NCBI RefSeq assembly: GCF_002224285.1
Contig: NZ_CP022436.1
Coordinates: 3,844,001-3,908,000 of the forward strand
Reading direction: 5' to 3'
Length of the DNA: 64,000 nt
From: Arthrobacter sp. YN
GTDB taxonomy: Bacteria; Actinomycetota; Actinomycetes; Actinomycetales; Micrococcaceae
In this document: one piece after another, positions 38,911-64,000 of the stretch
Position numbering within the stretch: position 1 is the stretch's first letter
Layout: each line of letters opens with the position of its first letter
Notes under the pieces: model-generated
Told to the model about the DNA's origin: nothing
The model's database searches: none
The model's input: only the letters and a program-made list of their open reading frames with translations
Program-made: the position numbers and the translations under genes

Positions 38911-40557
38911 GTGGCCACTTTCAGAGCAGAGCCGACACCTTTTCCTCCCCGCAGGTCCCGTCACCTCACAGCCGGCCTTATGGCAGCGGTCGTTCTGGTG
39001 CTCGGTATCCTTCACGGGTCCCCGGCCCAAGCTGCAACTTCTCCTATTTATCCCATCAGCGGTTACTTCATCTATGGCAGCACCAGTGATGCAAACAATC
39101 TAAAGAAACTGACGGACATAAAGTCAGTGGGTGGTGACACCGTCATCACCTTCGGCTCACTGCTCAAGCCTGCATCGCTGTCGACCATCCCGGCTGGGTG
39201 CACAATTTCGGGCGTCAACTGTGCGAAGGCCGCCGCTTCCGGGGTCACCGTGAACCGCTACTTCATCTACTCGGACAACAGCTCATGGGGGTCCCCGGCC
39301 GTGCTGTGTGGCCGTGATAAGACCGTCACGAACGGCACGACAAAATACACCATACTGCTGCTGCCCACCCAAGGAAGCGGTTGCACTTCTCCTACAAATA
39401 CCTATGACGTTGTTGTGATTACCGGTGGCCAGTCATCAATATCCATTTCATTGGGCAAGACAGCCACCGACCTGGGCATGAAGTATTACGCTGGTCTGCC
39501 CGCACCGGTCAAGAGAACTGACATAACGTACTTACCCGATCTCTCCTACCAAGCGACATTTTCGCTCTTCACGGCCCGTTTCCTGCTCTATCAAGCGAAA
39601 GTCAACGATGTTCCCGGCCTGGCAGGTTTCTACCACCACACGGAGATGCCACTCAGCAATGGGGCCGTCTGGGATGCTGTCCTGAAGGTATACGAAATCC
39701 AGAATTCGAGGATTGCCCAGTACCAGCCAACTCGTTCAGCAATTGTCAGCCCCTACATCGACTCGCGTAGCGCTTTCTCCGGCAGAGTCACAGTTGATCA
39801 GGCGCGCGAAGCCGTAGAGAACATTGCCAACACTGCCGATGGCGTGGATCTCGCGATCGCAGTACAGGACGGCATGGGTACCGGCAAGGGCGCTTCATTC
39901 TTCGGAAGCGAATCCGGAAACAGCGTGGATCAGTATGCAGCCGCGATAGTGGGCAACGGAACCTGGGGTTCCAAGTACATGGCCCCAACACGCGAGTACT
40001 TTGTAGCCCTGGCTGAAGGTGTCCAGGGCACGGGAGCCGAGCTGTGGGCGAACCTGGAAGGCATGGCGCCGGCGACCTCGCAGAATCCATGCGACAACAG
40101 CCTGCGCGGTCAGACAACCAAGTCAAGAATGAACAAGCAACTCCAGCAACTGGGCAACACTCCTGGCAAGGTCATTTCCTTCATGTGGGATCCATACTTC
40201 ACATGTTCTGGGACGTTTGCCCCGATGCTGGAGCGGCTTAAGACCACCAGCACGACTCCTGTGATTACGGACTCCATTTTCTATGGGAATGGTGATGTGT
40301 TGGTCACCGGTCACAACTTGAGCGGTGGGAAGGTACAGGTCAAGTGGACCGACGCTTATGGGAGGGTGTTTGACAAGACCGTAACTGCCACGGGCTACAA
40401 CGCAGCGTACGGGAAGCAATTGGGCATCAACCCACTTCTTGAGTCGGTGACGGCAAAGCTGGGCAGCACCTCCCTGGGCTCGGGCAAGAACTACTTCGTC
40501 AACGTGACTAACGGTTCGGGAGTGAAGAACGACGCCCTCTATTCTGATCGGGGTTGA
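38911..40557 (+). CDS. Secreted DUF4434-like protein
   Basis: 548 residues. An N-terminal signal peptide (basic start, hydrophobic core, ending AQAA near residue 42) precedes PISGYFIYGSTSDANNLKKLTDIKSVGGDTVITFG, which fits the TIM-barrel-like DUF4434 fold, possibly a glycoside hydrolase. A C-terminal beta domain (about 450-548) looks IPT/Ig-like. The GTG start has AAGGA six bases upstream. Its N-terminal 120 residues align clearly with the partial gene at 63498, so two paralogues bracket the polysaccharide locus. A role in trimming or modifying the exported glycan is inference. Confidence 0.8.
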   Translation: MATFRAEPTPFPPRRSRHLTAGLMAAVVLVLGILHGSPAQAATSPIYPISGYFIYGSTSDANNLKKLTDIKSVGGDTVITFGSLLKPASLSTIPAGCTISGVNCAKAAASGVTVNRYFIYSDNSSWGSPAVLCGRDKTVTNGTTKYTILLLPTQGSGCTSPTNTYDVVVITGGQSSISISLGKTATDLGMKYYAGLPAPVKRTDITYLPDLSYQATFSLFTARFLLYQAKVNDVPGLAGFYHHTEMPLSNGAVWDAVLKVYEIQNSRIAQYQPTRSAIVSPYIDSRSAFSGRVTVDQAREAVENIANTADGVDLAIAVQDGMGTGKGASFFGSESGNSVDQYAAAIVGNGTWGSKYMAPTREYFVALAEGVQGTGAELWANLEGMAPATSQNPCDNSLRGQTTKSRMNKQLQQLGNTPGKVISFMWDPYFTCSGTFAPMLERLKTTSTTPVITDSIFYGNGDVLVTGHNLSGGKVQVKWTDAYGRVFDKTVTATGYNAAYGKQLGINPLLESVTAKLGSTSLGSGKNYFVNVTNGSGVKNDALYSDRG

Positions 40558-40565
40558 ACCACTGC

Positions 40566-40604
40566 CGACGGCGGCCGCCCACCATAGTGAAGCGGCCGCC
40601 GTCG
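40566..40604 (+). terminator. Terminator after the first DUF4434-like gene
   Basis: A perfect 13-bp GC-rich stem (CGACGGCGGCCGC with GCGGCCGCCGTCG) and 13-nt loop start nine bases after the stop codon, separating this gene from the rest of the rightward block. Confidence 0.8.
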
Positions 40605-40741
40605 CTCTGTCGTGTTTATGAAGACCTCCTTGGATTGCATTCTGAGGCACTGTCCATGCGGTCGGATATGTCACTCGACTTCCCAGATGCAAGAATTGAT
40701 TATGACCCTGTCCCGTTTCAACGCACCTGAGGAGTGATGAA

Positions 40742-41074
40742 GTGACGAACCCTGTTTCCCGAACAGCTGCCCTTTCGCCTTCTCCGCGCCACATGCGACG
40801 GCGTCGTTTCAGGGGTGACGTTCCTTCTTCGCTCCTGCCTGGGCACCAGCACAGTCAGACGACTGCAGAGCGCGCGCGGCCCGCGGTGGTCAATCGAACC
40901 TCATCTTCGGCGCCGCCAGAGATTAAGGCGCCTGCGGCAAAGGCCTCGAAGCCTCCCTCGACCCCGTCCAAGGACGTCAGCCTTCGTCGCAAACGCATTG
41001 TAGCCCTCGCAGTTGTGACGCTTGTCTCTCTGAGTATTCCGATTCTGGCTCTGACCTTGATGTTTGGCCGCTAA
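40742..41074 (+). CDS. Small C-terminally anchored membrane protein
   Basis: 110 residues. The first 80 are basic and rich in Pro, Ser and Ala, with no fold evident. A single membrane helix (VALAVVTLVSLSIPILALTLMF) closes the protein. The GTG start has GAGGAG seven bases upstream. It lies between the DUF4434-like gene and wecB; function unknown, possibly related to assembly of the export machinery. Confidence 0.6.
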   Translation: MTNPVSRTAALSPSPRHMRRRRFRGDVPSSLLPGHQHSQTTAERARPAVVNRTSSSAPPEIKAPAAKASKPPSTPSKDVSLRRKRIVALAVVTLVSLSIPILALTLMFGR

Positions 41075-41162
41075 GCAATATATTGCGTCATACGTAATTA
41101 AGGACCTCGAGGGACGGTGCGATAGCATCGGCTGGTCAGCCACTGCCTTTCTCGGGGAATCC

Positions 41163-42305
41163 ATGCCCATCGTCATGCCAATTTTCGGTACCCGTCCGGA
41201 AGCCATCAAAATGGCTCCGATCGTCACCGCCTTTCAAGAGTCTGCAGACTTCGAGTGCGTAGTGACCGTCACTGGTCAGCACCGCGAGATGCTGGACCAA
41301 GTCAACGAGTTATTTGGAATCGTCCCGGACCACGATCTGAACATCCTGCAGCAACGTCAATCGTTGTCTGCCATCATGACCCGCACGATTGACGGCTTGG
41401 ACAAACTGTTTGCGGCCAACAAACCCGATGCAGTCATCGTCCAAGGTGACACGACCACTTCCACGGCCGGCGCCATCGCTGCCTTCTACCATGGCATCCC
41501 CGTGGTCCACGTCGAGGCCGGACTCCGGAGCGGTGACCTGTTCTCTCCGTTCCCTGAAGAGGCGAACCGCAAAATCACGAGCCAGATCGCCAGCCTCCAC
41601 TTGGCCCCGACTAGTGTCAGCCGCGGCAACCTGCTGGCCGAGGGGATTTCCGAAAGCGACATCGTCGTCACTGGCAATTCAGTCATTGATGCACTCCTGA
41701 CCACCGTGGACAAGCACATCCCGTTCTCGGATCCGCAGCTGGAGGAGCTTGCTGCCAGCGGCCGCCGAATCCTCCTGGTGACCACGCACCGCCGCGAAAA
41801 CCAGGGCGATGCGATGCGTGGTGTTGGACGCGCTTTGGCTCGCATTGCCGAAGCAGAGCCGGACCTGATGATTGTGTTGCCTGCCCATAAGAACCCTGTT
41901 GTTCGCGAAGCGGTTCTGCCCGCCCTTGAAGGCAAGGAGAACGTCATCGTCACTGAGCCCTTGGCTTACGGCGAATTCACCCGGATGCTCTCCTTGGCGC
42001 ACATTGTTCTTACAGACTCCGGCGGAGTCCAGGAAGAGGCACCGAGTCTCGGTAAGCCGGTTCTGGTAATGCGCGATAACACGGAGCGGCCGGAAGCAGT
42101 TGACGCCGGAACTGTGACGCTTATCGGCACTGACGAAGAGAAGATCGTCAAGGAAGTTGACCGCCTCCTGAATCAGCAGGACGCATTCGACGCCATGGCC
42201 AACGCCGTGAACCCCTACGGTGACGGAAAAGCTGCCGAACGGACAGTTGCAGCTGTGGCCCAGCTCCTCGGGACCGGCTCGCGCATCCCGGAGTTCGTAA
42301 GCTAA
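41163..42305 (+). CDS. wecB: UDP-GlcNAc 2-epimerase (non-hydrolysing)
   Basis: 380 residues, family length. It converts UDP-GlcNAc to UDP-ManNAc in the cytoplasm. Diagnostic segments are MPIFGTRPEAIKMAPIV at the start, VTGQHREMLDQV, VIVQGDTTTSTAGAIAAF, VHVEAGLRSGD, PEEANRK, and LTDSGGVQEEAPSLGKPVLVMRDNTERPEAV. The ATG at 41163 has GGGGAA upstream; codons further upstream are not supported. Together with WecC (encoded in the convergent block) it should provide UDP-ManNAcA. Confidence 0.95.
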   Translation: MPIVMPIFGTRPEAIKMAPIVTAFQESADFECVVTVTGQHREMLDQVNELFGIVPDHDLNILQQRQSLSAIMTRTIDGLDKLFAANKPDAVIVQGDTTTSTAGAIAAFYHGIPVVHVEAGLRSGDLFSPFPEEANRKITSQIASLHLAPTSVSRGNLLAEGISESDIVVTGNSVIDALLTTVDKHIPFSDPQLEELAASGRRILLVTTHRRENQGDAMRGVGRALARIAEAEPDLMIVLPAHKNPVVREAVLPALEGKENVIVTEPLAYGEFTRMLSLAHIVLTDSGGVQEEAPSLGKPVLVMRDNTERPEAVDAGTVTLIGTDEEKIVKEVDRLLNQQDAFDAMANAVNPYGDGKAAERTVAAVAQLLGTGSRIPEFVS

Positions 42306-42312
42306 TTTGAAA

Positions 42313-42501: not shown

Positions 42502-45447
42502 ATGACCACCCACACAGTAGATCTCGACGTCGTTCGGCGCCAGACGTTCGGAGAGATGTTCAGGAAGAGGTCAACTGACCGTGCTCTTGCTGACGAGCTC
42601 CTCGTCGGCAAGCTCAGCATGCGTCCTCACCCGACGTGGAATTTCCAGGATGACATCGACTGGAATGCAGATCCGTTCGGGCAACGGAATTGGCGGGCGC
42701 AACTTCACATGCTGCGCTGGTTGGAGCCGGTCCGCAGGGTAGCTATGGATGGAGACCGGCAAGCCCAGGAGTTTTGGCTCCAAACGTGCAAGTCGTGGAT
42801 TGAAGCCAATCCTCAGTCGGACCCGAAGGAGAAGGACCAACAGGGCAATTTTGTCAGCTATGCATGGGCTGACATGGTGGAGGCGCTACGTGCCATGGTC
42901 CTGACGTTTGGTCTCCCGCTGGTTCAGGAGGGCGAAGATCAATGGCTGGCGGAGTCCATCTATGCACACGGCTTGTGGCTGGCGGACTCCAAGCATCTCG
43001 GTCATTCAAATCATGCCCTGCACCAGCACCAGGCTCTTTTCGTCATCGGTTCAGCCCTGGGCAACGCGGAATGGACGCAACTGGCAACACAGCGCCTCAC
43101 GAGCTTGTTCGAGGAAAATTATGACGAACAGGGCGTAAATGTCGAAGGGGCCATTGGCTACCACAAGAACAATCTTGTGTGGTGGGAAGAGGCCTTCAAG
43201 CGTCTGGATGTGGAAGGCGTGCCCCGTCCGGCCTCAGCCGAGAGGCTGAATCTCGCCTACCTGGAACTTGCCCATGCCACTAAGCCCGACGGTACCTTTG
43301 AACTGATTGGTGATACTGAAGCCACCACTCCGGGAGCGTTGTCGTCCCCCGAATTGGATTACGTGAAGTCGGAAGGTGCTACGGGACAACCGCCCGCGGA
43401 GCTCACAAAGATTTACGAGAAGGGGTATGTCTTCGGGCGCAGCGGCTGGGGCGATCATGAACGTGATTTCAAGAAGGAAACCTTCTATTCCCTGTCCTTC
43501 GGCAAGGCCAACCGCGTACATGGTCACCAAGATGGCGCTTCCCTGACCCTTCATTCAAACGGCCATCCATGGCTGGTTGACGCCGGTAAATACGCGTACA
43601 AAAAAGACGCCATGCGCGACTACTGCTTGTCCCGGCTTGGACACAACGTAGTGCAAGTCGAGGACAGGGTATACAACCCCAAGTCCGAAGTGGCCCTCAT
43701 CCGGTCATTCACCAGCGATGAAGTTGACGACTTCACCTTCGCGGATTCCGGGTATAAAGGCGTCGAACTGAAGAGGCGTGTCGTCTACTGCCGTGGTGGC
43801 GAGTTCTTACTCGTCATAGACAACGTGTTCAGTGCTGACGAGGTCTCCGCCAGACAGCGTTGGCATCTTGACACGGACACCGCGGTGGAGGATATCCCGG
43901 GCGGCCTGCGACTGGATCGCGATGGCACGTCCTCCTTCCTCCTTTGGAAGGGCAACGCGCCTGCCATCTCAATTGTGAAGGGTTCAGAAGAACCCTTCGA
44001 CGGCTGGATGTCCAGGAAATGGATGGAGAAATTGCCAACCCAGGTTGTCTCCGCGACACAGAGCGGGCGGCGCTTCCGGTTCATCACCATCATCGCCGCG
44101 CCACAATCAGGCAACTTCTCTGTTAAGAAAATGGATGCCACCGGCGGACGAATAGCGTTGAGTGCGCTCTCCGGACGTTACCAGTTCAACCTGACCGTCG
44201 AAGAGGATCGCGTTTCGGTCACCCTCGGCGAGGAAGGAACGATTTCCTCCGAACTGGACGACGTGAGGTCAGCATGGCTTAAGACCATGGACCTTTGCCG
44301 CGACGCAGGCGCCGTGTGGTCAGCGCCCAAACCAGATGACGGCTTGTTCACGACGAGGTACTGGGGCCATTTGAAGGCATGGGTTGCCCAACAGGACGAC
44401 ACCCGAAGTGCGCGGCTGGAAGCTTTGAGCATTCTTCTCAACCTTCTTCTCGACGCCACCGATAACGCGAGCGAAGACCAAGGCCTGCGTGCGGGCATCG
44501 TGGATCTCCTGGGGAACGACCTCACCGAGGAACTCGAGCTTAACAACAGCGCTCTTGGCGTGATGCGTGAGCCGCTGATTGCCTGGGCCGGCGTTGATCT
44601 TCGCTCAAAGACGTATGGCCGCGAGATCCAGACCATCAGTTCGCCGAGTGAGATCGGTTTCGAGGACGGCGAGAAGTCCAAGATTTACTCCGCCAACCTG
44701 GGAGGCCTGGTTCTGCCTTTCGCGGTAGGGCGTGGTCCGTCTGATCTCTTATCCGTCAGGTTCCACGGCGCGATCAATAGAACCAAGACAACGTTGCCTT
44801 TCTTCCAGGGGCTGACTTCCGAGCTTATGGAAGGGGGAAACCATGCCGTCTTCCAGGATCCCTCACTGGACCTCAACAAGAACATGACCCTCTCTTGGTA
44901 CCTCGGAGATGGCAGCATCAATGTCCATCGGTTCATGGCCGAGTGCATCCGCAAGCTCCAGCTTGAAACGAATGCCACGCGTATTCTTCTGTCGGGCAGC
45001 TCGGGTGGCGGATTCACTGCCCTTCAAGTTGCCGCCTACCTCCCCGATTCCGTCGCACTGGTCTTCAACCCCCAAACCGACGTAAAGGAATACTTCCGGA
45101 CCAGCGCAGATGTGGCTCTATCCACCTGCTTGAAGTCTGATGTCGATGTGGAAGAAGCACGCGCCTTCAGGCTTTCCACGTCCGTGGTCGAAACGTATGC
45201 GATGCTGGAACACCTCCCCCGTATCCTCTACGTCCAGAACACAGGCGATACCCACCACGTCACAAAACACCGTAACCCGTTCCGCTTAATGCTGGAGTCT
45301 GAACACAGCCACCATGAAGATCGGATCGAATTCGTTGATGTTGAGTGGGGTCCTGGGCACGTGGCCGCTAAAGCCGAGCTTTATGCCCATTTCCGCTCCG
45401 CCGCCTTGGAGCACTTTCCGAAAAGTACCAGTTCATTAATCAACTGA
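42502..45447 (+). CDS. Heparinase II/III-like protein fused to an alpha/beta hydrolase
   Basis: 981 residues, no signal peptide. The N-terminal alpha/alpha toroid (about 30-290, including HSNHALHQHQALFVIG) and a beta-sandwich domain with FGKANRVHGHQDGASLTLHSNGHPWLVDAG and RLGHNVVQVEDR (about 330-400) match the heparinase II/III superfamily of polysaccharide lyases. From about residue 720 on lies a hydrolase domain with elbow LSGSSGGGFTALQ, LVFNPQTDVKEYF and final WGPGH. This half is homologous to the separate protein encoded at 21697-22482. The fusion is unusual and suggests cleavage or editing of a glycan plus removal of an ester group (inference). Cytoplasmic location is predicted. Confidence 0.82.
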   Translation: MTTHTVDLDVVRRQTFGEMFRKRSTDRALADELLVGKLSMRPHPTWNFQDDIDWNADPFGQRNWRAQLHMLRWLEPVRRVAMDGDRQAQEFWLQTCKSWIEANPQSDPKEKDQQGNFVSYAWADMVEALRAMVLTFGLPLVQEGEDQWLAESIYAHGLWLADSKHLGHSNHALHQHQALFVIGSALGNAEWTQLATQRLTSLFEENYDEQGVNVEGAIGYHKNNLVWWEEAFKRLDVEGVPRPASAERLNLAYLELAHATKPDGTFELIGDTEATTPGALSSPELDYVKSEGATGQPPAELTKIYEKGYVFGRSGWGDHERDFKKETFYSLSFGKANRVHGHQDGASLTLHSNGHPWLVDAGKYAYKKDAMRDYCLSRLGHNVVQVEDRVYNPKSEVALIRSFTSDEVDDFTFADSGYKGVELKRRVVYCRGGEFLLVIDNVFSADEVSARQRWHLDTDTAVEDIPGGLRLDRDGTSSFLLWKGNAPAISIVKGSEEPFDGWMSRKWMEKLPTQVVSATQSGRRFRFITIIAAPQSGNFSVKKMDATGGRIALSALSGRYQFNLTVEEDRVSVTLGEEGTISSELDDVRSAWLKTMDLCRDAGAVWSAPKPDDGLFTTRYWGHLKAWVAQQDDTRSARLEALSILLNLLLDATDNASEDQGLRAGIVDLLGNDLTEELELNNSALGVMREPLIAWAGVDLRSKTYGREIQTISSPSEIGFEDGEKSKIYSANLGGLVLPFAVGRGPSDLLSVRFHGAINRTKTTLPFFQGLTSELMEGGNHAVFQDPSLDLNKNMTLSWYLGDGSINVHRFMAECIRKLQLETNATRILLSGSSGGGFTALQVAAYLPDSVALVFNPQTDVKEYFRTSADVALSTCLKSDVDVEEARAFRLSTSVVETYAMLEHLPRILYVQNTGDTHHVTKHRNPFRLMLESEHSHHEDRIEFVDVEWGPGHVAAKAELYAHFRSAALEHFPKSTSSLIN

Positions 45448-45493
45448 TGCAACACTTTTGCACCGACCAGATTTCGTTGACTTAGGAAACACG

Positions 45494-47692
45494 TTGCACA
45501 TTAACAGAAGACTCAGTTCTGACAGGACCATCGGCCTTTCCGCAGTTGCGGGTTTTGCCTTCATTTTCTTTGGAACGTTGTTGGCTCTCCTGCCGCTGGC
45601 GGCTTCGACGGCAAGCGCGGTGGTCATCATCGCTTTGTTTGTGGTGGCTAGTGTCGCCTTCAGCGTTGCCACCACCGGCCTGATTGGGAGGCTGAAGGAG
45701 AACCGGCGCTTGCAGCGCGAGTCCCAGGCCTCAATTAAGAAGTACCTGCTGACTCTGCAACGGCAGTTGACTGATCTGGGAGAAACTCAGACCGCCTCCA
45801 CGGCGCAGCTCACCGACCTGAAGGAGGCCCACAACGCCTCCACAGCACGGCTCACCGACCTGAAGAAAGCCCACAACGCCTCCACAGCACAGCTCACCGA
45901 CCTGAAGAAAGCCCACAACGCCTCCACGGCACAGTTGTCAGATGCGGTCCTAACCGCGATTAGGACACTGCCCGTCCCCAAGCCTGAGCTTGAGGCCGAG
46001 CACGGGCGCTTGCTGCAACTCGTCGAGGACCTTAAAACCGAACAAGAAGAAAGGGTCCAGGAGGCCGAGGAGCGACATCTCGAACGGCAGTTCGATCTTG
46101 TGGCGCTTGACGGGAAAAACTGGGACTCTTTCTCCGGTTCCGAGGTTAAGAAACTTGCGGAGACGCAGTTCAACGCTAAGCCCTTGGCGGTCTACGAGAT
46201 GCTCGAAGCCCATTCGATCTTTGAGAAGATCAATATGACGTCTCTGCGTGGCCTGGCAAGTGAGCTGCGCAAGCTCGGATACACAGCCAAGAGCCAGCAC
46301 GTCCTGCGGGTAGTACTTAGCCGGAAGCACAACGAGAAATTGGCCAGTGCAGTCGCGTTACGCGATGAAGAGGTCAAGATCTTCTCCGGTGCCTTCAAGC
46401 CTGAGCCGCAAGGACCGTACGAGCGCTTTGCTCCCAAGCCGAACTGCATCCTGCACGTAGTGGGCAAAGTTCTCCCGACTACACAGTCGGGATATACGCT
46501 GCGTACGCACTACACGGCCTTAGCCCAGATCCAGTCCGGGTTGGAAGTACACGTGTGCAATCAGGTGGGCGATGCAGTGAACGCCGATGTAGCCGCGCAG
46601 ATGGACGTTGACGGTGTCACCTACCATCTCCCGACAGGACCCATCCGACTGAACACTCCCCTGACTACTTGGCTAAGCGCCAACGTTGAGGAACTCGCGA
46701 GAGTGGTTGCAGAGGTACGTCCTGCTGTTCTCCATGCCCACTCAGACTTCTTCAATGCCCTCTCCGCAAGGGCTGTTGGTGACTATTTCGAGATTCCTGT
46801 GATTTACGAAAGCCGCGGCTTCTGGGAAGAGTCTTGGCTTTCCCGAATGGCCCAAGCCAGCGGTATCGAAGACATCGAGGCATTCAGCAATCGCTGGGGC
46901 ATCCCTGACACCTACGCATGGCGTCGGGAACGCGAGCGTGATTGCAGGGAAGCAGCGGACCATGTGTTCACCCTTGCAGAGGTCATGAAACGCCGAATTA
47001 CGGCCGAAGGGTGCCCGGAGGACAAGACCTCGGTAGTGCCCAACGCTGTCAGCGGCGCCCAATTCCCGGTTCAAACGCGAAATGCCGAGTTGGCTGGCAG
47101 GCTAGGCATACAGAGCGACGAGATCGTCATCGGGTACATTTCATCCCTGGTCGAGTATGAGGGAGTACCGGTACTTATCGATGCCTTCCGACAGTTGCGT
47201 GAACGCCTGAGCGTTCCTGTCCGGCTCCTCGTGGTAGGCGATGGACCAGTCCTCGACTCTCTCAAGGCCACAGCTGCGTCGCTCGGACTTCAGGATGCTC
47301 TCTTCACAGGGCGCGTACCCCACGAGGACATCCTGGGGTATTACGGGCTCATCGACATTTTCGTTGTCCCACGCACGGCAGCAGCTGTATGCCAGCTCGT
47401 CACGCCCCTGAAACCCTTTGAAGCCTTCGCAACGGGACGAACGATTGTTATGTCTGACGTCGACGCGCTCAAGGAAATTGCAGAGGCAAGCGGCTCGGCT
47501 GCTCTGTTCCAGGCTGGAAACAGTGACTCACTCGCGGACGTACTAGCCGACCTTGTTTCAAGCCCTGAGACGAGGAGCCAGATGGCGGCAGCCGGCGCGG
47601 CTTGGGTACGTGAAAGTCGCTCATGGGAAGCCAACGCGGCTGTCTATAACAACCAGTATGCGAATCTGGCGGCGAATGCAATCCGCGTCTGA
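45494..47692 (+). CDS. GT4 glycosyltransferase with membrane and coiled-coil N-terminus
   Basis: 732 residues. Two adjacent membrane helices (about 15-60) are followed by a coiled coil (about 65-230) containing near-identical 14-residue repeats STAQLTDLKKAHNA. The C-terminal half is a GT-B fold GT4 enzyme: VVGKVLPTTQSGYTLRTHY, VYESRGFW-like YESRGFWEESW, SVVPNAVSG, IGYISSLVEYEGVPVLIDAF, VTPLKPFEAFATGRTIV. A TTG with AGGAAA upstream is the preferred start. The helices and coil should tether the enzyme to the membrane near the exporter. It is related to the GT4 encoded at 59584-61317. Confidence 0.85.
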   Translation: MHINRRLSSDRTIGLSAVAGFAFIFFGTLLALLPLAASTASAVVIIALFVVASVAFSVATTGLIGRLKENRRLQRESQASIKKYLLTLQRQLTDLGETQTASTAQLTDLKEAHNASTARLTDLKKAHNASTAQLTDLKKAHNASTAQLSDAVLTAIRTLPVPKPELEAEHGRLLQLVEDLKTEQEERVQEAEERHLERQFDLVALDGKNWDSFSGSEVKKLAETQFNAKPLAVYEMLEAHSIFEKINMTSLRGLASELRKLGYTAKSQHVLRVVLSRKHNEKLASAVALRDEEVKIFSGAFKPEPQGPYERFAPKPNCILHVVGKVLPTTQSGYTLRTHYTALAQIQSGLEVHVCNQVGDAVNADVAAQMDVDGVTYHLPTGPIRLNTPLTTWLSANVEELARVVAEVRPAVLHAHSDFFNALSARAVGDYFEIPVIYESRGFWEESWLSRMAQASGIEDIEAFSNRWGIPDTYAWRRERERDCREAADHVFTLAEVMKRRITAEGCPEDKTSVVPNAVSGAQFPVQTRNAELAGRLGIQSDEIVIGYISSLVEYEGVPVLIDAFRQLRERLSVPVRLLVVGDGPVLDSLKATAASLGLQDALFTGRVPHEDILGYYGLIDIFVVPRTAAAVCQLVTPLKPFEAFATGRTIVMSDVDALKEIAEASGSAALFQAGNSDSLADVLADLVSSPETRSQMAAAGAAWVRESRSWEANAAVYNNQYANLAANAIRV
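45794..45939. repeat. 42-bp tandem repeats in the coiled-coil region
   Basis: Three full units (45794-45835, 45836-45877, 45878-45919) and half of a fourth differ at only a few positions. They encode 14-residue coiled-coil repeats, so the coil length can change by unit gain or loss without breaking the frame. Confidence 0.9.
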
Positions 47693-51071: not shown

Positions 51072-51078
51072 CCACAAC

Positions 51079-55774: not shown

Positions 55775-55791
55775 TTACTTCCCCTTTTTAG

Positions 55792-57696
55792 TTAAACAGT
55801 GATGTGTTCTTTGGGATCTCCAAAGAACCTGATTTCGCCGGACGCGGCCAGTTCCTCATCTGAGACATCCCAAGTATGACCGTCGCCCTGCCGGATCTGG
55901 CAGAAGTTGAATCTGTCGGCAGAATAGATGAAGCCACCCGCCGTGGTGACGGCTTTTAGGAAGCCTGTATCTTCTCCACGGTTAACAGCTTCAAAAGGAT
56001 TGGATTCAAAGACTTCACGTCGTGCCGTGATAGTCGGTCCAACCACAAAGCGGGTTAGACGATGTTCCATATGGGCGATACGGAGCGCCGTCGCCTTTGT
56101 CGACACGAAGTGCATGTAGTGCGCTTGCTTTCCCACCACGTCTGCCTTCGAGTAATCAAGTGCATGAAGGAGGTCCACAAGATATTGCGGACCATAGTAG
56201 TCGTCGTCATCCATCTTTGTGAGAACTTCACTCGAAGACGCGGCGACACACTGGTTCAGGCATTCACCCAACGTCAAGTCTCTGGACGCAGTCAGAAGCT
56301 TGAAGCGCTGAACCCCGTGCTTTGCGGCCAAATCCTCGACATGGTCCATGGCTACTTCGAATCCGTGCGTTAGAAGTACCAACTCAACATCAACGTCCGA
56401 TTGACTACCGATGGTCGCGAACACATTCTCCAGCTGATGTGGTCGAATGGTCGGCACGAGTGCACTGACTGTTGGCAGCTGGACCGGTCGCAACAGCTCC
56501 GGGAGAACTGATGCGACTATTGTTTCCGCCCTGTGGGCGTAGGTGTGCTCGCTCCAGATCCGTCGTTGGCCCCTGTGAACTACTCGGTCATTGAGTTCGG
56601 AGCTGCGCGCCAACATCCTGATCTGATGTTCACCTTGCTCCTGCGAACCCGCTACGAAGACTTCATCCGGCTCAAAGAAGTGACCGATGGCGGAGCTCGG
56701 TGTTGAGACGATGGGCGTCCCCGAAGCGGTGATCTCAAAAATCCGTCTCGCGCACATGCTGGGCGAGCCGACAACGGAATTGACGTTAAGAAATACCTTG
56801 TACGCCCTGTATGCGGTCAACATTTTTGCGTAATCCAGACTCCCGACCACATTCTCATTGAACGGTACTGGGAACTGGTAACTGGAATCTCCACCGAGTT
56901 GACGCGAAAAGATGTCCAGCCTTGGCCCTGACTTAGAGGATGCATCCCTCGCTGCATTAAGAAGTAGATCCATTTGCTGGCGGCGTTCTGGGTATTTATG
57001 AGCAAAGTACATCCCCGCGAAGGCCACCCCTCGTGAGTGACGTCCTTCTCCGATACGAATCGGATTATGGATTGCCGGCTGCGCAGCAAACGGCAGCGGA
57101 GCTATGCGGTCGTGGCCCAAGTCCCTCTGATAGGAGGGAATACGGTCTGAATCACTCGTGAAAACCATGTCGAACTCACGAGCCGCAGGCAGGAAGTCAT
57201 CGTAGTGAGGCGGATCCTCTTTGTTCCAAAAGACCGTTGGGATCTGACGCGCCCGGCACCAGGCAACCAATTCCAAGAACTCGGGCTTTGGTCCGGATGT
57301 GCCCATGAGCTGGTACTTCCAGGAGCCTTGGTTGCCGTTCCAGGCTGACTCTACGAACAAGAAATCGATTGACGTTGCCGCCAGTTGCTCCTGCCACGAG
57401 TCTTTTCGAAGATGCAGCAGGTTCCATTCAAAGGAGTAGGCAGCACTCGAAAAGTCATCCAGAATCACGCCAACTGTAAGGTCCTGGCGCCGGGGATCAC
57501 GATCAGGGACGCGATAGGGCCCAAACGCCACCAGGTTGCCCGGCTCTGAGATTGAACCAGCCCGAGTCTTGCTCTTGCCGCGAGAACTGTTGATTCGCTT
57601 CTCGACTTTTCGTCTCCTGCGCCACTCCAGGAGCTGGTTTAGTCCTCCCTGCCGGAAATGCCATGCAGCTTTGCGCATGTCCTCTATCACTAGCAT
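55792..57696 (-). CDS. Two-domain glycosyltransferase (CgeB-like plus GT2)
   Basis: 634 residues. N-terminal part: VGVILDDFSSAAYSFEWNLLHL, IPTVFWNKEDPPHYDDFLPAAREFDMVF, FLNVNSVVGSPSMCARRIFEITASGTPIV, typical of CgeB-like GT-B enzymes. C-terminal part (about 420-634): SALVPTIRPHQLENVFATIGSQ, VLTKMDDDDYYGPQYLVDLL (GT2 DDD motif) and NRGEDTGFLKAV. The ATG at 57696 is one base after the stop of the ABC ATPase gene and has GGAAGGA eight bases upstream. Such bifunctional enzymes often build a repeating disaccharide or a linker (inference). Confidence 0.87.
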   Translation of the reverse strand: MLVIEDMRKAAWHFRQGGLNQLLEWRRRRKVEKRINSSRGKSKTRAGSISEPGNLVAFGPYRVPDRDPRRQDLTVGVILDDFSSAAYSFEWNLLHLRKDSWQEQLAATSIDFLFVESAWNGNQGSWKYQLMGTSGPKPEFLELVAWCRARQIPTVFWNKEDPPHYDDFLPAAREFDMVFTSDSDRIPSYQRDLGHDRIAPLPFAAQPAIHNPIRIGEGRHSRGVAFAGMYFAHKYPERRQQMDLLLNAARDASSKSGPRLDIFSRQLGGDSSYQFPVPFNENVVGSLDYAKMLTAYRAYKVFLNVNSVVGSPSMCARRIFEITASGTPIVSTPSSAIGHFFEPDEVFVAGSQEQGEHQIRMLARSSELNDRVVHRGQRRIWSEHTYAHRAETIVASVLPELLRPVQLPTVSALVPTIRPHQLENVFATIGSQSDVDVELVLLTHGFEVAMDHVEDLAAKHGVQRFKLLTASRDLTLGECLNQCVAASSSEVLTKMDDDDYYGPQYLVDLLHALDYSKADVVGKQAHYMHFVSTKATALRIAHMEHRLTRFVVGPTITARREVFESNPFEAVNRGEDTGFLKAVTTAGGFIYSADRFNFCQIRQGDGHTWDVSDEELAASGEIRFFGDPKEHITV

Positions 57697-57697
57697 G

Positions 57698-58591
57698 TCA
57701 GCGTCCTTCCATACGACGCCCGCTGGCTCGTTCGAGCACACGTGTAGCGACAAGGTTTGCACGGGCTTCATCCTTGATACCTGCGGCTGTGAGGTTGTTC
57801 CCACGGGATAGGTTGGATGAGAAGTCTTTGTAAGTAGCTGTCACGTCTTCAGCGGGTCCATCCATGATGAGCTCGCCCTTATCCAGCCAGATCACCCTGC
57901 TGCACATGTCCCGAATGGTATCCAGACCATGACTGACGATGAAGACGCAACCCGCTTGGGCCCGCAGCTCATCCATGCGCGCTTTACTTCGGTTGTTGAA
58001 CTGCGCGTCGCCAGTGTTCAGCGCTTCATCGACCAGGAGGATCTCCGGATTAACAGATGCTGCAATAGCAAAGCGCAGTCTGGACGCCATGCCTGAAGAG
58101 TACGTTTTCATTGGCAGGAAGATGGCGGAATCCAAACCTGAGACTTCGACGATATTGTCGAAGCGAGCATCGATCTGCTCCCTGGTCATACCCATAGCGA
58201 GGCAGCCCAGAACGACGTTTTGATCGCCGGAAAGTTCAGGGACCAGTGCGGCATTGACACCAAGGAGAACGGGAGTGCTTGAAGCGTAGACAGCGCCGTC
58301 GGTAGGCGCCACCTGGCCGCTGATCAACTTCATCATTGTGCTTTTTCCAGAACCATTCCGCCCGATGATGCCGACAGACTCGCCCCTTTCCACGACCAAA
58401 GAGATCTCTTTGAGCGCAGAAACGGTGACCAAGTTCGGCCGCTCAAGCAGGCTTGTAATTCTTCCCCTGATTCCCCGTCTGCTGGACGTGCTGCGTCCAT
58501 CAGAAGATGGCACCCGATAAGTCATCCGGACCTTGTCTATCACTACGCATGGAGGACCGTCCAGAAATGCAGTTGAATCAATCGCGCCCAT
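57698..58591 (-). CDS. Polysaccharide ABC exporter ATPase (Wzt/TagH type)
   Basis: 297 residues. Walker A is GIIGRNGSGKST (about 105-116); the signature region is YSSGMASRLRFAIAASVNP; Walker B is EILLVDEALNTGD; the H-loop is FIVSHG. The N-terminus contains MTYRVPSSDGRSTSSRRG, an insertion typical of TagH/KpsT-type ATPases. There is no C-terminal carbohydrate-binding domain as in long Wzt proteins. GGAGGAG precedes the ATG at 58591, which overlaps the permease gene by 14 bases. It powers export of the finished glycan. Confidence 0.9.
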   Translation of the reverse strand: MGAIDSTAFLDGPPCVVIDKVRMTYRVPSSDGRSTSSRRGIRGRITSLLERPNLVTVSALKEISLVVERGESVGIIGRNGSGKSTMMKLISGQVAPTDGAVYASSTPVLLGVNAALVPELSGDQNVVLGCLAMGMTREQIDARFDNIVEVSGLDSAIFLPMKTYSSGMASRLRFAIAASVNPEILLVDEALNTGDAQFNNRSKARMDELRAQAGCVFIVSHGLDTIRDMCSRVIWLDKGELIMDGPAEDVTATYKDFSSNLSRGNNLTAAGIKDEARANLVATRVLERASGRRMEGR

Positions 58592-59465
58592 AAGTCTCCT
58601 CCCCTTGCCAGAAGAATACGAAGCCAACCAAGAGTGCCCCCAGTGCGACGACACCCAGAGTTGCCCATGACTCCCAAGAAGGCACACGGTCGTAAAGGAC
58701 GCTGCTGCGAACGATGTCAATGACGTTGAAGAGCGGATTGAACTTCATCACGGCGAGAATCGTCGGATCGGACACGAATCGTTCGTAGGAGTAGAAGACA
58801 GCCGAACCGTACATCCAGGCACGAATAGCGAACGGAAGGAGGTGCGTAACGTCATGCACCTTCGAAATAACGCGTGCAAGTATCAGGCCGATCCCAAGAT
58901 TGAAGATTCCCTGAAGAATCACTGCGGGAATGGTGAGAAGCCAGAGAACGCTGACCTTCTCGGCGGGCGGCACTATGACTATGAGAAGAAGCATGCCCAA
59001 GATCAAGGGCACGGCTGAGAGCATCTCACGCATGTTGGCACCCAAAGGCAGGGCTGCCCGTGGAAAGTTGAATGCTTGGACGACAGACTTGCCGTTGCGT
59101 ATTGATCGCGCACCTGATGTGATCGCGCCAGAACTGAACTGGAAAAGGAAGATTCCAACCACTAAGTAACCGACGAAGTTATCGATGCCGTGGCTGGTCT
59201 GCAGCAACAATCCGAACACGAAGTAATACGTCAGTCCGTTAAAAACGGGATTCAACAGTAGCCACGCGCTACCTAGCCGGTCTTTTCGCGTTCCACTCTG
59301 CACGCGAGCCCGGGCATCGTAGAAAATAAACTGACGGTAGTCCCATAATTGGACCAGGTAGTCCAGAAACCCCGGACGGGACCCCACCCGGGAGAGCTTC
59401 CTGATATCCACCGACAACGGCTGTATTGCCGCCGGCGGTGGAAGCTTAGCCTTCTTTGCCGACAC
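58578..59465 (-). CDS. Polysaccharide ABC exporter permease (Wzm/TagG type)
   Basis: 295 residues with six membrane helices of the ABC-2 type. Characteristic parts are the amphipathic N-terminal LWDYRQFIFYDARARVQSGTRKDRLGSAWLLLNPV, then NGKSVVQAFNFPRAALPLG and the C-terminal FNPLFNVIDIVRSSVL. A GTG start is used. It forms the transmembrane half of the exporter with the following ATPase. The 118-bp gap before it holds no gene. Confidence 0.92.
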   Translation of the reverse strand: MSAKKAKLPPPAAIQPLSVDIRKLSRVGSRPGFLDYLVQLWDYRQFIFYDARARVQSGTRKDRLGSAWLLLNPVFNGLTYYFVFGLLLQTSHGIDNFVGYLVVGIFLFQFSSGAITSGARSIRNGKSVVQAFNFPRAALPLGANMREMLSAVPLILGMLLLIVIVPPAEKVSVLWLLTIPAVILQGIFNLGIGLILARVISKVHDVTHLLPFAIRAWMYGSAVFYSYERFVSDPTILAVMKFNPLFNVIDIVRSSVLYDRVPSWESWATLGVVALGALLVGFVFFWQGEETYGRD

Positions 59466-59583: not shown

Positions 59584-61317
59584 TCAGTTGCCCCTCAGTG
59601 TCTCGTAAGCCTTGCCGTATAAATCTGCGTTTGCACTCCACGTCCTGGTGTCCAAGACTCCCTGACGGCCGGCGGCGCCAAACCGCAGACGCAGACCTGC
59701 ATCCTCAAGCAACTCGAGCAGTGCTTCGGCAAGCGCGTGGGGATTCTGCGCCGGTACCAGGCGGCCGTTCACCCCGTCATGCACGATCTCCCTCAAGGCA
59801 TCAAGATCGCTGGCCACCACCGGCCTCCCCGATGCCAATGCCTCAACGGGTTTCAACGGCGTAACTGCCCTCGTTACGGCGAGGTCCTTCCGAGGCACGA
59901 CGAATACGTCCAGAGCCTGGTGGAAGAGATGCGCTTGCGCTGGTGGCACTCGCCCCGCGAAATGAGTCCGGTCCGATAGACCCAGCCGCCGGACCTGGTC
60001 TTGAAGCGCAGGAGCAGCCGCCCCATCTCCCACCACGATCAACTTCAACTTTGACAGCCGAGGTGCAAGCAGCGCAAATGCTGTGACGAGATCATCAATC
60101 CCTTCGTAGTCCACGAGGCTGCTGACAGTTCCTATGTAAAGTCCCTCTGGGTCAAGACCCAGAGCCAGTCGCGCCGCCTTATGCTGCAGGGGTTCGCTCA
60201 AGTAGGACCCGCCGACAGCATTCGGACAGATGAGCACCTTACTGGCTGGGACTCCAGACGCAACGATATTGCTCTTCATGGCCTCGCCGAGAGTTACCAC
60301 CAAGTCAGCGCTGCGCATGATTTCAGCCTCGCGCTCCACAAACAGTTGATAGCGTTCGCTGCATCGTGCTTCATCCCCGCGGGTTGATGCCCAAGTATCG
60401 GCCAACTGCCCACGAACTTCGTAAACCCAAGGTACGTCCAAAGCGCTGGCTACTTCGCGTGCGACCACACCGTTGACAAAGTGAGTGGTCGTGTGGATAA
60501 TGCCAGGATTGAAACGCCGGGCTACTTTGAGAAGCTCATTGGCTTGTTGCTGCAATCGACCATCCATGGACTTGGCCATGTGACTTGGCAGTAAGCGCGT
60601 GTAGTGAACCCCATCCACCACGTCATCCTTCCGAGCCGTGAGCGCACCGATCTGGACCGGATACCCCAGGCGGGTGACGGCCAACGTCTCCCAACCGGAG
60701 TTCTGTTGGGCCGTGAGGATCGAGTGTGTACGCCGGGCGTAACCGCTGGCCGTATGGGGCACTGAATTTGTCAAAAGGTGCATGACGCGGCGAGGCTGTG
60801 GCTCCGAGCTGACTTTCGGCAGAACGGGATGCCAGCCTTGGAAGACCCTCAACTCTGATTCAAGGCGCTTTCGCTGCCTGGCCATGCCTGCGGACTGACC
60901 TGCAAGAGCCTCTACGGCTCCGGACATGTCACCGTCGTACCACTTGCGTCGCGCCGAAGTCGCGGGAGCATGACGTGTTCCTGATGCCTGCCGCAAGAAT
61001 ATGTCGGACCATTCAGTTTGTCCTGCGGCAAGGGCAACTTCGCTTGCCTTCCGAGCCTGTCCAGCTGAGATTTTTTGAGCAGCGGCACACTCGAACCGCC
61101 TCACCAGCCCGCGAGTATCACCCGCAGCGTGGCTTGCGAGCAAAAATAGCGGTTTAGCGGATCTTGGCGCCACTTTGGCGACAATGAGCGCAGCAGGTCC
61201 AACCACGGATGATGGCAGCCGCCTGAGCATCAGGAGCACCAGCATGAACGGCGCTTCCGTCATGTGTTCGATAACTGTGCTCATGGCCAGCTTCAAGTTG
61301 TTCATGACGTGGATCAT
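59584..61317 (-). CDS. GT4 glycosyltransferase
   Basis: 577 residues. A helical N-terminal extension (about 1-170) precedes a GT-B fold: MHLLTNSVPHTASGYARRTHSILTAQ, PWVYEVRGQLADTWAS, VLICPNAVGGSYL, LYIGTVSSLVDYEGIDDLVTAFALL, VTPLKPVEALASGRPVVASDLDALREIV. It resembles the GT4 at 45494-47692 in architecture and motifs, so the two blocks share related enzymes. The ATG overlaps the preceding gene's stop by four bases (ATGA). Donor sugar unknown. Confidence 0.88.
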   Translation of the reverse strand: MIHVMNNLKLAMSTVIEHMTEAPFMLVLLMLRRLPSSVVGPAALIVAKVAPRSAKPLFLLASHAAGDTRGLVRRFECAAAQKISAGQARKASEVALAAGQTEWSDIFLRQASGTRHAPATSARRKWYDGDMSGAVEALAGQSAGMARQRKRLESELRVFQGWHPVLPKVSSEPQPRRVMHLLTNSVPHTASGYARRTHSILTAQQNSGWETLAVTRLGYPVQIGALTARKDDVVDGVHYTRLLPSHMAKSMDGRLQQQANELLKVARRFNPGIIHTTTHFVNGVVAREVASALDVPWVYEVRGQLADTWASTRGDEARCSERYQLFVEREAEIMRSADLVVTLGEAMKSNIVASGVPASKVLICPNAVGGSYLSEPLQHKAARLALGLDPEGLYIGTVSSLVDYEGIDDLVTAFALLAPRLSKLKLIVVGDGAAAPALQDQVRRLGLSDRTHFAGRVPPAQAHLFHQALDVFVVPRKDLAVTRAVTPLKPVEALASGRPVVASDLDALREIVHDGVNGRLVPAQNPHALAEALLELLEDAGLRLRFGAAGRQGVLDTRTWSANADLYGKAYETLRGN

Positions 61318-62591
61318 CGTGATCCCCGCCGTCCTGAGGCATGGGAATTCTTACCTACTACTGTGGCGATCTCCTGCATATATTGAAGGGCAAGGTGTGC
61401 ATAGTCCGCGTGCTCGCTTACCCACTCCCGCCCACTTTTGCCTGCGGTAAGCCTTTGGCGGTCCTGAGCAAGCTCGCGCCATAGTTGAGCGACAGCTTCG
61501 GGATTGGCATTAACCACATCACCTGCCTTGGCCTCGCGGATAATTCGCTCAGCCTCACCTCGAACAATTGCAGTCACGTGCCTGCCGATTGCGAGAACCT
61601 CGTATGTCTTCGATGGAACGGTGGTTTCAAACGACTTCCAGTCATCGCGAAGAGACACGATACATGTGTCCGTTTCCCGATATTTTTCCAGAACAGCAGG
61701 TCCGTGAAGCGACGGATAAAACGTCACCGGCGCATTCAGCTCTCGGGCTAGCTTGACCAGTTGAGGCCTGGTTGTTCCCTGGCCGACCAAGGTTAGATGA
61801 AAGCCATCACCCAACAACGCGCTGGCGCGGATAAGGACGTCCAATTTCTGGCTTTTGCCGTGATTTCCAAGATACAGAGCACGAAACTCCTTCCGGTCCA
61901 GAGCCGGCGGCTCCAGGAATGGGACGGTATGGAGGTCCAGGCCATTACTTACTGTGGCTACGTGCTTGATGCCCCTCGCTCGTAGCGTGTCAGCAAATCC
62001 TTCTGTCACCGTCACGACGAGGTCGGCCCGTTGCTGCAAGAACTCCACGGCGTGCTCAACTACGCTCTTTACGCTGCCCTGGACGATACGGGCATCCCGT
62101 GCCAGGTCCGGCCAAGCATCACGCATCTCCACAATGAACGGGACTCCCCTGAGCTTGGAGAGAACGTATCCAGTAGCCAACGTTGGGAGACTGGGAGCCG
62201 TGGCAAGGATTGCGTCGGGCTTCTTTCCTCCCAGACCTACGGGGACGGACATAATGGCAGAGAAGAGTTGATCCATGAATCGGGCCAGGGACGAAGTGCC
62301 CATGTGTCGCAGGTAAGGGACACGGCGGATAGTCTCTCCATGGAGACCCCGCTGGTGCGAGAAGGCGAGTCCCGCTTGCCTGCGGGGCAGATTGCGCCGG
62401 CCGTTTGGATAATGCGCTACAGGTGCGACAACGTCAACGTCCCAGCCAGCCCTTCGGAATTCTCGAGCGAGGGATGCCCATCTACGTTGAGGTGGGCTAT
62501 GTTCGGGCCAGTAAGAGTGCGTGAGGAGCATGAGGCGCATCGGTGGAGCGGGAATTTCCGCAGCCTTGTCCCCGGTGAGGGAGTTAACCAT
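61314..62591 (-). CDS. GT4 glycosyltransferase (WbuB-like)
   Basis: 425 residues, a GT-B enzyme. Opening MRLMLLTHSYWPEHSPPQRRWASLAREFRRAGWDVDVVAPV is typical of WbuB/ManNAc- or FucNAc-transferase-like GT4 members. Later motifs are RGVPFIVEMRDAWPDLAR, ATVSNGLDLHTVPF, FRALYLGNHGKSQKLDVLIRA and SFETTVPSKTYEVLAIGRHV. The ATG at 62591 lies four bases after the stop of the Pro-rich protein gene; a longer frame overlaps that gene and is rejected. Confidence 0.85.
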   Translation of the reverse strand: MVNSLTGDKAAEIPAPPMRLMLLTHSYWPEHSPPQRRWASLAREFRRAGWDVDVVAPVAHYPNGRRNLPRRQAGLAFSHQRGLHGETIRRVPYLRHMGTSSLARFMDQLFSAIMSVPVGLGGKKPDAILATAPSLPTLATGYVLSKLRGVPFIVEMRDAWPDLARDARIVQGSVKSVVEHAVEFLQQRADLVVTVTEGFADTLRARGIKHVATVSNGLDLHTVPFLEPPALDRKEFRALYLGNHGKSQKLDVLIRASALLGDGFHLTLVGQGTTRPQLVKLARELNAPVTFYPSLHGPAVLEKYRETDTCIVSLRDDWKSFETTVPSKTYEVLAIGRHVTAIVRGEAERIIREAKAGDVVNANPEAVAQLWRELAQDRQRLTAGKSGREWVSEHADYAHLALQYMQEIATVVGKNSHASGRRGSR

Positions 62592-62595
62592 GGGC

Positions 62596-63258
62596 CTACT
62601 TGCCGTTGAGGCGGGGGCGAGGGCTCCCCTTGGAACGCAGAGCCCGGAAGTACGCAACACCCAGCAGAATCAGCACCAGAACAGTAACCCCTTGGACGAT
62701 GGGGTTATTTTCAGCGACGGGGGCCAGCGCAACCTTCAGCGGGCCGGCAATATCGGCGCTGGCAACAGGTGGCGCCGCTGACTTAGTTGCCGACGGTGTC
62801 GGCGTTGGGGTCGGGGTGGGCTCCGCCGGGGCTGTCGTGGTTTCGACAGGAACCAGAGGTTCTTCAACATAGCCTTGAATCCCGGAGTCCGTGGGCAGGA
62901 CCGGCAACGGCGATTCTTGCGTGGGAGACGCGGGTGCGACCGGCTCAACGGCCGGTGGGACTGCGGGCTCCGTGACGGGCGGAGCAACAGGTGCTGGCTC
63001 TACTGGCGGAGGAACGGGTTCTGGGCTTTGCTCAGGCTCCAACGGGGTGAGCGTCGGAGACGGCTCCAAAATGGGAGGGACAACGACAGGCGGCACCACT
63101 GGTTTAGTCGGGACTCCCGGATCGGTTGGTTGCCCGGTTTCGGTCCCGGGGCCCGGCTCCAACTCGGTTGCGATGGCGGGTTGGATGCCAATGAACCCGA
63201 TAATGGCCAGCAAAAAGACCACGAGCATGGCTTGAACACGTTTGATTCCAGTGCCCAA
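62596..63258 (-). CDS. Secreted Pro-rich protein with C-terminal membrane anchor
   Basis: 220 residues. A signal peptide (VQAMLVVFLLAIIGFIGIQPAIA) is followed by about 120 residues of Pro/Glu/Val/Thr repeats (PEQSPEPVPPPVEPAP), then a final membrane helix (VQGVTVLVLILLGVAYF) and a basic tail (RALRSKGSPRPRLNGK). The C-terminus has no LPXTG motif. A TTG start with GGGGGGA upstream. First gene of the leftward block; such a wall-spanning Pro-rich stalk could attach to the surface glycan (inference). Confidence 0.7.
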   Translation of the reverse strand: MGTGIKRVQAMLVVFLLAIIGFIGIQPAIATELEPGPGTETGQPTDPGVPTKPVVPPVVVPPILEPSPTLTPLEPEQSPEPVPPPVEPAPVAPPVTEPAVPPAVEPVAPASPTQESPLPVLPTDSGIQGYVEEPLVPVETTTAPAEPTPTPTPTPSATKSAAPPVASADIAGPLKVALAPVAENNPIVQGVTVLVLILLGVAYFRALRSKGSPRPRLNGK

Positions 63259-63497
63259 CTTTCCCCCCGTTGTGTATGTTTTAGAACGCTATCTACGATC
63301 CATCCATCGCTACCGCCTGAGACATGACGGCGCGCGGACGTCCCCCTCCGCGGAGGGGCGACCCACGTTAGTTTATCGTATGGATTAGACCCAGCCCCCC
63401 TCAGCCGCAGGGACCTCGTCGCGAGTCCACCCCACTGGGCTTGATTATGGCCGCCCTTGGTAGAGTCGTCTCTGCTGACGTCGATTCAGAGGATTAC
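63259..63497. promoter_or_regulatory. Divergent promoter region with a 16-bp palindrome
   Basis: The 239-bp gap between the leftward Pro-rich gene and the rightward DUF4434-like gene must hold both promoters. CCCCTCCGCGGAGGGG (63343-63358) is a perfect palindrome that could be an operator or hairpin. A/T-rich sequence next to it (63371-63390) may contain a -10 box. Exact boxes are uncertain. Confidence 0.4.
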
Positions 63498-64000
63498 ATG
63501 ACACCCCTAAACTTCTCCCGACAATCATGGCTGCTGAGGCCATCTTCCGGAGGAGCTGGGCGATGGTCCCTCGCCATTCTCGCGGCCCTCCTGGTCGTCG
63601 TGGGCGTGATCTTCGCTCCCTGGGACAATAAGGCCGTTACACCCAACAATGCCGTGACACCCAACGCCCCCGCTTCACCGCCATCCCATCCCATCAGCGG
63701 TTACTTCATCACCGCCAATACCGAGTCATCCGCCAACAGGGAGAAGATGGCAGATATCAAGGCCTTGGGTGGAGATACAGCGATCACTTTTGGCACCCTT
63801 TTGAGACCGGCCACGGTGGAATCCCTTCCGACCGACTGCGTTGTGCAAGGTGTGGCCTGCGGCAAATTCGTCAGCACGTCCTTGAGCGTTCATCGATACT
63901 TCACCTATTCCGACGGAAGCCACTGGGGGGACTCTGTGGCGAAATGTCCCAATGACCGGAGTGTCTCATCCGCTGATAAGTCCTACACCATCTTGGTACT
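63498..64000 (+). CDS. DUF4434-like protein, N-terminal part (runs off the window)
   Basis: The open frame from ATG 63498 (AGAGG six bases upstream) has no stop before the window end, giving at least 167 residues. A membrane helix or signal anchor (WSLAILAALLVVVGVIFAPW) and a short Pro/Asn/Ala linker precede HPISGYFITANTESSANREK, MADIKALGGDTAITFG and SLSVHRYFTYSDGSHWGDS. These align along their length with residues about 45-150 of the protein encoded at 38911 (including paired cysteines). It closes the visible part of the polysaccharide locus. Confidence 0.8.
   Translation, partial: MTPLNFSRQSWLLRPSSGGAGRWSLAILAALLVVVGVIFAPWDNKAVTPNNAVTPNAPASPPSHPISGYFITANTESSANREKMADIKALGGDTAITFGTLLRPATVESLPTDCVVQGVACGKFVSTSLSVHRYFTYSDGSHWGDSVAKCPNDRSVSSADKSYTILV

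Follow-up and report, generated by a model that had tools for sequence, protein, structure and literature searches.

We analyzed a 64-kb window (G000:C1:3844001-3908000; positions below are those of the window) of the 5.06-Mb genome of Arthrobacter sp. YN and found a surface-polysaccharide locus in which a C5-epimerase lies together with genes for the supply of UDP-N-acetyl-D-mannosaminuronic acid (UDP-ManNAcA). In our preferred reading, to which we assign a probability of about 0.48, the product of this locus is a teichuronic-acid-like anionic surface polymer that contains D-ManNAcA, partly converted to 2-acetamido-L-guluronic acid (L-GulNAcA). An earlier sequence-only reading had proposed an epimerised amino-uronic-acid polymer here, on the grounds of WecB and WecC, a glucuronyl C5-epimerase-family protein, two heparinase II/III-superfamily proteins, five or more glycosyltransferases and an ABC-2 exporter. 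All of these components were confirmed, with five glycosyltransferase genes counted, and the interpretation placed on them is partly supported.

The epimerase gene (49746-51071, + strand) begins with an ATG at 49746, the start given in the earlier reading, and encodes 441 amino acids; the same length from the ATG is found in L010/L074, L011, and L012. The protein scored 70.1 bits against PF06662 (cut-off, 23.3 bits), with positions 7-143 of the 188 profile positions covered. The rest of the profile is unmatched because it is displaced by an insertion of about 150 residues between Y232 and Y385. The catalytic residues E499, Y500, N510, Y560, and Y578 of GlcE correspond to E172, Y173, N183, Y232, and Y385 here, and the full five-residue set is present in 24 of 35 aligned rows. 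In the 441-residue model, the catalytic domain has the GlcE fold, with six helices of 13-21 residues (54-222) followed by the main beta region (about 229-359). Loss of the epimerase active site, which the earlier reading had named as a ground for giving up its proposal, was not observed, as both the fold and all five residues are retained. The domain order of the eukaryotic enzyme (a beta-hairpin and beta-sandwich, then the helical domain) was not seen in this model; therefore, we filed the protein under PF06662 and not as a GlcE orthologue. It has no membrane helix and is predicted to be cytosolic. In three distant members of the insertion-bearing clade (L033, L042, and L112), Y500 is replaced by V or S, and these proteins may be inactive or altered.

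With regard to the sugar supply, WecB (UDP-N-acetylglucosamine 2-epimerase, providing UDP-N-acetylmannosamine [UDP-ManNAc]; 41064-42305, +) and WecC (UDP-ManNAc dehydrogenase, providing UDP-ManNAcA; 54476-55774, -) both passed curated cut-offs, with 473.3 bits for TIGR00236 (210.15) and 580.4 bits for PRK11064 (459), respectively. The best PDB relative of WecC is Cap5O (E 3e-99). Synthesis of UDP-ManNAcA next to glycosyltransferases, as in teichuronic acid of the Micrococcus type, is thus found at this locus, and a ManNAcA-containing chain is well supported. The sequence-only reading had also reported that no UDP-glucose dehydrogenase was visible and had taken this to favor ManNAcA as the epimerised residue. 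The absence holds within the window but not genome-wide: a UDP-glucose-dehydrogenase-like protein is encoded at G000:C1:1364667, about 2.5 Mb from the locus (333.3 bits with the TuaD model and 148.9 bits with the WecC model, both under the equivalog cut-offs), so that this argument fails. Instead, we infer from comparative linkage that ManNAcA is the best candidate for the epimerised residue, because WecC and HepA are both present in every genome that carries one of the five closest epimerases, which fall into three lineages (window/L011/TC1; G069; G590).

HepA (42502-45447, +) is one of the two heparinase II/III-superfamily proteins. Its residues 1 to about 570 form a heparinase-III-fold domain, and residues about 707-970 form a CsaC/SacC-like alpha/beta-hydrolase domain that had been overlooked earlier. 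Alignment places lyase-type residues at N170, Y220, H221, and H340, according to the Asn/Tyr/His set that we take to be catalytic in heparinase III. In the second domain, the triad S114, D198, and H228 of CsaC, as well as Q138, H201, and Y79, are invariant in all seven HepA rows. The spacings from S to Q (24) and from D to H201 (3) are equal to those of CsaC, and the others are similar (S-Y, 34 versus 35; S-D, 82 versus 84; D-H228, 37 versus 30). Both alignment and model thus point to a probable O-acetyltransferase. The HepA of G069 (L074:12778-15621, -) has lost the lyase-type residues (N170->S, H171->Q, E215->A, Y220->Q, and H340->R); it keeps the six CsaC-type residues, and the epimerase of this genome is intact. 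Elsewhere in the window, a short separate protein (about 21781-22365, -) resembles the acetyltransferase-like domain of HepA, with 31% identity (E 1.4e-19).

The second such protein, HepB (about 47658-49424, +; ATG at 47658), is PL17-like (Hepar_II_III_C, 74 bits) and matches PL17 alginate lyases with E values of 1.4e-07 to 5.7e-05. Numbered by the 623-residue reading frame, H227 and Y280 of HepB align with the two positions altered in the named Alg17c mutants, H202 and Y258. By hydropathy, neither HepA nor HepB has a signal peptide or a hydrophobic signal or membrane segment. Between the two genes lies a GT4-family glycosyltransferase (45458-47692, +; Glycos_transf_1, 89.7 bits) with a hydrophobic N-terminal membrane segment (24-79); in L170 (3055-7089) and L171 (3746-7594), the homologues of this GT4 protein and HepB are one fused polypeptide.

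The + strand order is therefore WecB, HepA, GT4, HepB, and C5-epimerase, and the opposing genes on the - strand are a two-domain glycosyltransferase, WecC, a second two-domain glycosyltransferase, Wzt, Wzm, and two GT4 proteins. The first two-domain glycosyltransferase (GT-B-like plus GT2; 51437-54099) is frameshifted relative to its relatives, being split into overlapping frames at 52348-54099 and 51437-52537; in L011 and L164, it is a single open frame of about 940 amino acids. Either a genuine mutation or an error in sequencing may account for the frameshift. Its paralogue occupies 55792-57804, and the GT4 genes lie at 59584-61317 (paralogue of 45458-47692) and 61314-62660. The ATP-binding cassette (ABC) exporter consists of a Wzm-type ABC-2 permease (58578-59465; ABC2_membrane, 38.6 bits, cut-off 26.9) and a Wzt/TagH-type ATPase (57698-58720; galactan_ABC_ATP, 173.4 bits, and TagH, 168 bits, both under the equivalog cut-offs). 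Pfam scans of the locus genes turned up no Wzx/Wzy family.

On this basis, we propose that WecB and WecC would make UDP-ManNAcA and that the five glycosyltransferases would assemble the chain in the cytosol, attached to a lipid carrier. Before export, the epimerase would invert part of the ManNAcA residues at C5 to L-GulNAcA, and the chain would be O-acetylated by the CsaC-like domain of HepA and cut or edited by the heparinase folds of both Hep proteins; Wzm/Wzt would then export the whole modified chain. The gene identities, active-site residues, folds, lack of signal peptides, linkage, and purifying selection are supported at the level of sequence and predicted structure; we infer which residue is epimerised, that acetylation takes place, in which order the steps occur, and that the chain is attached to the wall. 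A more specific proposal, which we put forward tentatively, is a Gram-positive "amino-alginate", that is, a ManNAcA chain that undergoes C5 epimerisation to L-GulNAcA, O-acetylation, and lyase editing in the cytosol before its export by Wzm/Wzt. Its enzymes would be unrelated to the alginate set and would include a GlcE-family branch located in the cytosol and one protein with both lyase and O-acetyltransferase functions.

The relatives identified by name are Arthrobacter sp. 18067, Paenarthrobacter aurescens TC1, and Paenarthrobacter sp. CM16; in the first two, the epimerase is full-length and 94% and 92% identical to that of the window, respectively. Within the genus, the epimerase and a close HepA (E ≤ 1e-40) each occur in 2 of 61 genomes, the same pair (G000 and G242), and the G242 epimerase runs off the end of its contig. 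Hep relatives with weaker matches (E 1e-18 to 1e-24) are present without the epimerase in G086, G106, and G137. Stretch L175 of G086 encodes a close WecB (739 bits), a close GT4, and, next to them, a distant heparinase-fold protein, and it contains no epimerase; this sister species perhaps makes another ManNAcA polymer. PF06662 was detected in 4 of 197 genomes of the family, 25 of 396 of the order (24 above the cut-off), and 31 of 396 of the phylum. In the genus of G590, HepA (E ≤ 1e-60) is found in 18 of 38 genomes and the G590-type epimerase in G590 itself only (1/38). An order-wide search detected HepA in 45 of 297 genomes at E ≤ 1e-8, many of them via the acetyltransferase-like domain alone, and seven genomes besides our own exceeded 200 bits. 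The 20-kb stretches of these seven contain WecC (6/7), HepB (4/7), and WecB (3/7), and none contains the epimerase (0/7) according to a profile that detected it in all 46 of 46 epimerase loci. None of the seven belongs to the 25 PF06662-containing genomes of the order, and six of them were searched again without a match. Since close HepA relatives often lack the epimerase, the conserved core looks to be ManNAcA supply, Hep proteins, glycosyltransferases, and exporter, with the epimerase as an optional addition. In P. aurescens TC1, the locus (L164) is colinear but lacks the epimerase at the place between HepB and the glycosyltransferase. The TC1 epimerase, intact and 441 amino acids long (L012:10010-11335), is located about 27.5 kb from HepB, near SelO, and is under purifying selection. 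The epimerase, the lyase-type site, and the acetyltransferase-type site look like separable modules.

Other loci vary in their sugar genes. G590 has an additional aminotransferase, oxidoreductase, hexapeptide transferase, and second dehydrogenase (models under the equivalog cut-offs), which appear like the WbpA/B/E/D route described as making 2,3-diacetamido-uronates (PMC10622841), and WecB was not seen in the two G590 stretches. L072, from the same family as the window, and L085 contain insertion-less epimerases with an amino-uronate-type dehydrogenase, accompanied in L072 by an aminotransferase and an oxidoreductase.

Several results weigh against the polymer with D-ManNAcA and L-GulNAcA that we prefer. 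Among 46 wide PF06662-type loci (5 of them shorter than 19.9 kb and some genomes represented twice, hence non-independent; other PF06662 matches, many on short contigs, were left out), in 40 the stretch is devoid of all three nucleotide-sugar dehydrogenase classes tested, and in 2 (L088 and L089) a UDP-glucose dehydrogenase is encoded near the PF06662 gene. The PF06662 family as a whole is therefore not tied to amino-uronates, and a tight phylum-wide bond between the two, which we had considered, found no support. L095 has an apparent 2,3-diamino-uronate pathway besides WecC, and the substrate there may differ. The TC1 epimerase stands outside the operon, beside non-polysaccharide genes, and one of the glycosyltransferase genes is split in the genome under study. 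The likeness of HepA to CsaC is structural, as the CsaC structure 6yuo is matched by sequence only at E 0.66. The acceptor-positioning R148 of CsaC is unmatched: the column ten positions after Q138 holds S in four, A in one, and F in two of the seven rows, and an arginine two columns before this position occurs in three of the seven rows only. CsaC without R148 is reported to be unable to acetylate its polymer (PMC7501274). Therefore, we refer to the HepA domain as CsaC-like and not as CsaC, acetylation of a ManNAc chain by it is conjectural, and our confidence in both the preferred reading and the amino-alginate proposal is somewhat lower. The domain may act on another acceptor or be an esterase.

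It is also conceivable, if rather unlikely, that the epimerase converts D-glucuronic acid (GlcA) to L-iduronic acid in the same or another polymer and that its adjacency to WecB/WecC is incidental. GlcA would be available via the UDP-glucose dehydrogenase encoded in the genome, which makes it a possible substrate; a characterised bacterial GlcE relative is described as active on GlcA, and the separate position of the TC1 epimerase and the dehydrogenases of L088 and L089 point in the same direction. On the other hand, the dehydrogenase is remote from the locus, WecC and HepA accompany all five closest epimerases, and L072 and L085 pair the PF06662 gene with an amino-uronate-type enzyme. In another reading, which we regard as quite unlikely, HepA and perhaps HepB would act as C5-epimerases through their heparinase folds, like human dermatan sulfate epimerase, and the PF06662 protein would serve as a second epimerase that produces another pattern.

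The heparinase-fold proteins might be lyases for chain-length or quality control only, with the epimerase acting on a lipid-linked repeat instead of the polymer. The fusion of HepB and GT4 in two loci fits this idea, and Agl32, an unrelated archaeal C5-epimerase, is described as working on a lipid-linked tetrasaccharide; the exporter, however, is of the whole-chain Wzm/Wzt type, with no Wzx/Wzy partner in the scans, and we find this explanation decidedly unlikely. A catabolic locus degrading an environmental amino-uronate or glycosaminoglycan polymer might be suggested by the two polysaccharide-lyase folds and the flanking DUF4434-type proteins, but it is scarcely credible, given that the Hep proteins are without signal peptides and their genes are surrounded by biosynthetic and export genes.

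The start of the locus, at approximately base 38900, coincides with a drop in G+C content, from 0.606-0.666 in 2-kb blocks upstream of base 38000 to 0.542-0.606 downstream. The first gene (38911-40557, +) encodes a secreted protein with an N-terminal hydrophobic segment (16-39) and no Pfam match of its own. It shares 49.7% identity over 541 residues with its paralogue across the locus (L002:2372-4207, window 63372 onward), which matches DUF4434 (33.0 bits; cut-off, 30), a domain that we take to be a putative glycosidase fold. This pair at both locus edges could reflect polymer turnover or a border duplication. Large FG-GAP-repeat proteins are encoded nearby at 27066-29351 (-) of the window and at L002:7714-11592 (+), one of them behind a subtilase domain. 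No promoters or terminators were found at 49300-52000 (chance expectation, 0.9 and 3.0). No LCP ligase is present among the locus genes scanned; L126 of G069 contains one. A defence-system reading was also considered, and PADLOC gave no match for HepA or the epimerase.

Compared with known systems, the locus shares with alginate modification the predicted activities of an epimerase, a lyase, and an O-acetyltransferase. In alginate biosynthesis, AlgG/AlgE-type beta-helix epimerases are used, GDP-mannose dehydrogenase yields GDP-mannuronic acid (GDP-ManA), and modification is periplasmic. Here, the protein families are different: the epimerase has the GlcE helical fold, the dehydrogenase is of the UDP-ManNAc type, providing UDP-ManNAcA and not GDP-ManA, and modification is predicted to be cytosolic. 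Thus, the alginate-like character proposed in the sequence-only reading stands as a set of modifications and not as family membership, and a heparosan-like polymer finds little support. The human and zebrafish GlcE enzymes are the best fold match and share all five catalytic residues, whereas the epimerase here is bacterial, lacks a membrane helix, is adjacent to ManNAcA genes, and carries its beta region as an insertion between the counterparts of Y560 and Y578, not before the helical domain. HepA and HepB share their fold and aligned catalytic-type residues with heparinase III/HepC (4mmh and 5jmd) and PL17 alginate lyases, but they lack signal peptides by hydropathy, belong to a biosynthetic locus, and in one case are fused to an O-acetyltransferase-like domain. 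This domain resembles CsaC/SacC of Neisseria meningitidis serogroup A in its fold and six residues, including the unusual Q138, H201, and Y79 arm (PMC7501274), and differs in its location behind a heparinase-III fold, its very weak sequence similarity, and the unmatched R148. RED65_08024 of Bermanella marisrubri is likewise described as a bacterial GlcE-related C5-epimerase active on a polymer (PMC4432689 and PMC13308652); a review calls its natural target unknown, and the locus here suggests an amino-uronate.

The idea that 2-acetamido-L-guluronic acid arises by C5 inversion of ManNAcA is already published: it was proposed for the Vibrio polysaccharide VPS (PMC3901696), from a Gram-negative organism, in a description whose relevant passages name no C5-epimerase gene, and a review tentatively assigns this inversion to the dehydrogenase VpsB. 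Actinobacterial wall polymers with a ManNAc-configured amino-uronate are also on record, as the teichuronic acid of Micrococcus luteus is described as containing ManNAcA (PMC3005890) and that of Streptomyces griseus as containing 2,3-diacetamido-mannuronic acid (ManNAc3NAcA; PMC13274773); the pertinent sections of these two accounts report no C5-inverted residue. An open-licence literature search returned no description of such a cluster, of an insertion-bearing and apparently cytosolic epimerase branch, or of a heparinase-III/CsaC-like fusion. Every single part is a known family or fold, and the combination is new to the literature searched.

In the sources available to us, a bacterial enzyme that makes L-GulNAcA is not established, and this locus offers a concrete candidate with its sugar supply adjacent. 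It further suggests that the alginate logic, in which a chain is epimerised, acetylated, and cut, evolved a second time, and it points to a C5-epimerase predicted to be cytosolic. Variation in Streptomyces teichuronic acid is reported to affect which species are bound by antibacterial toxin particles (PMC13274773), and an optional epimerase could therefore alter recognition by such particles.

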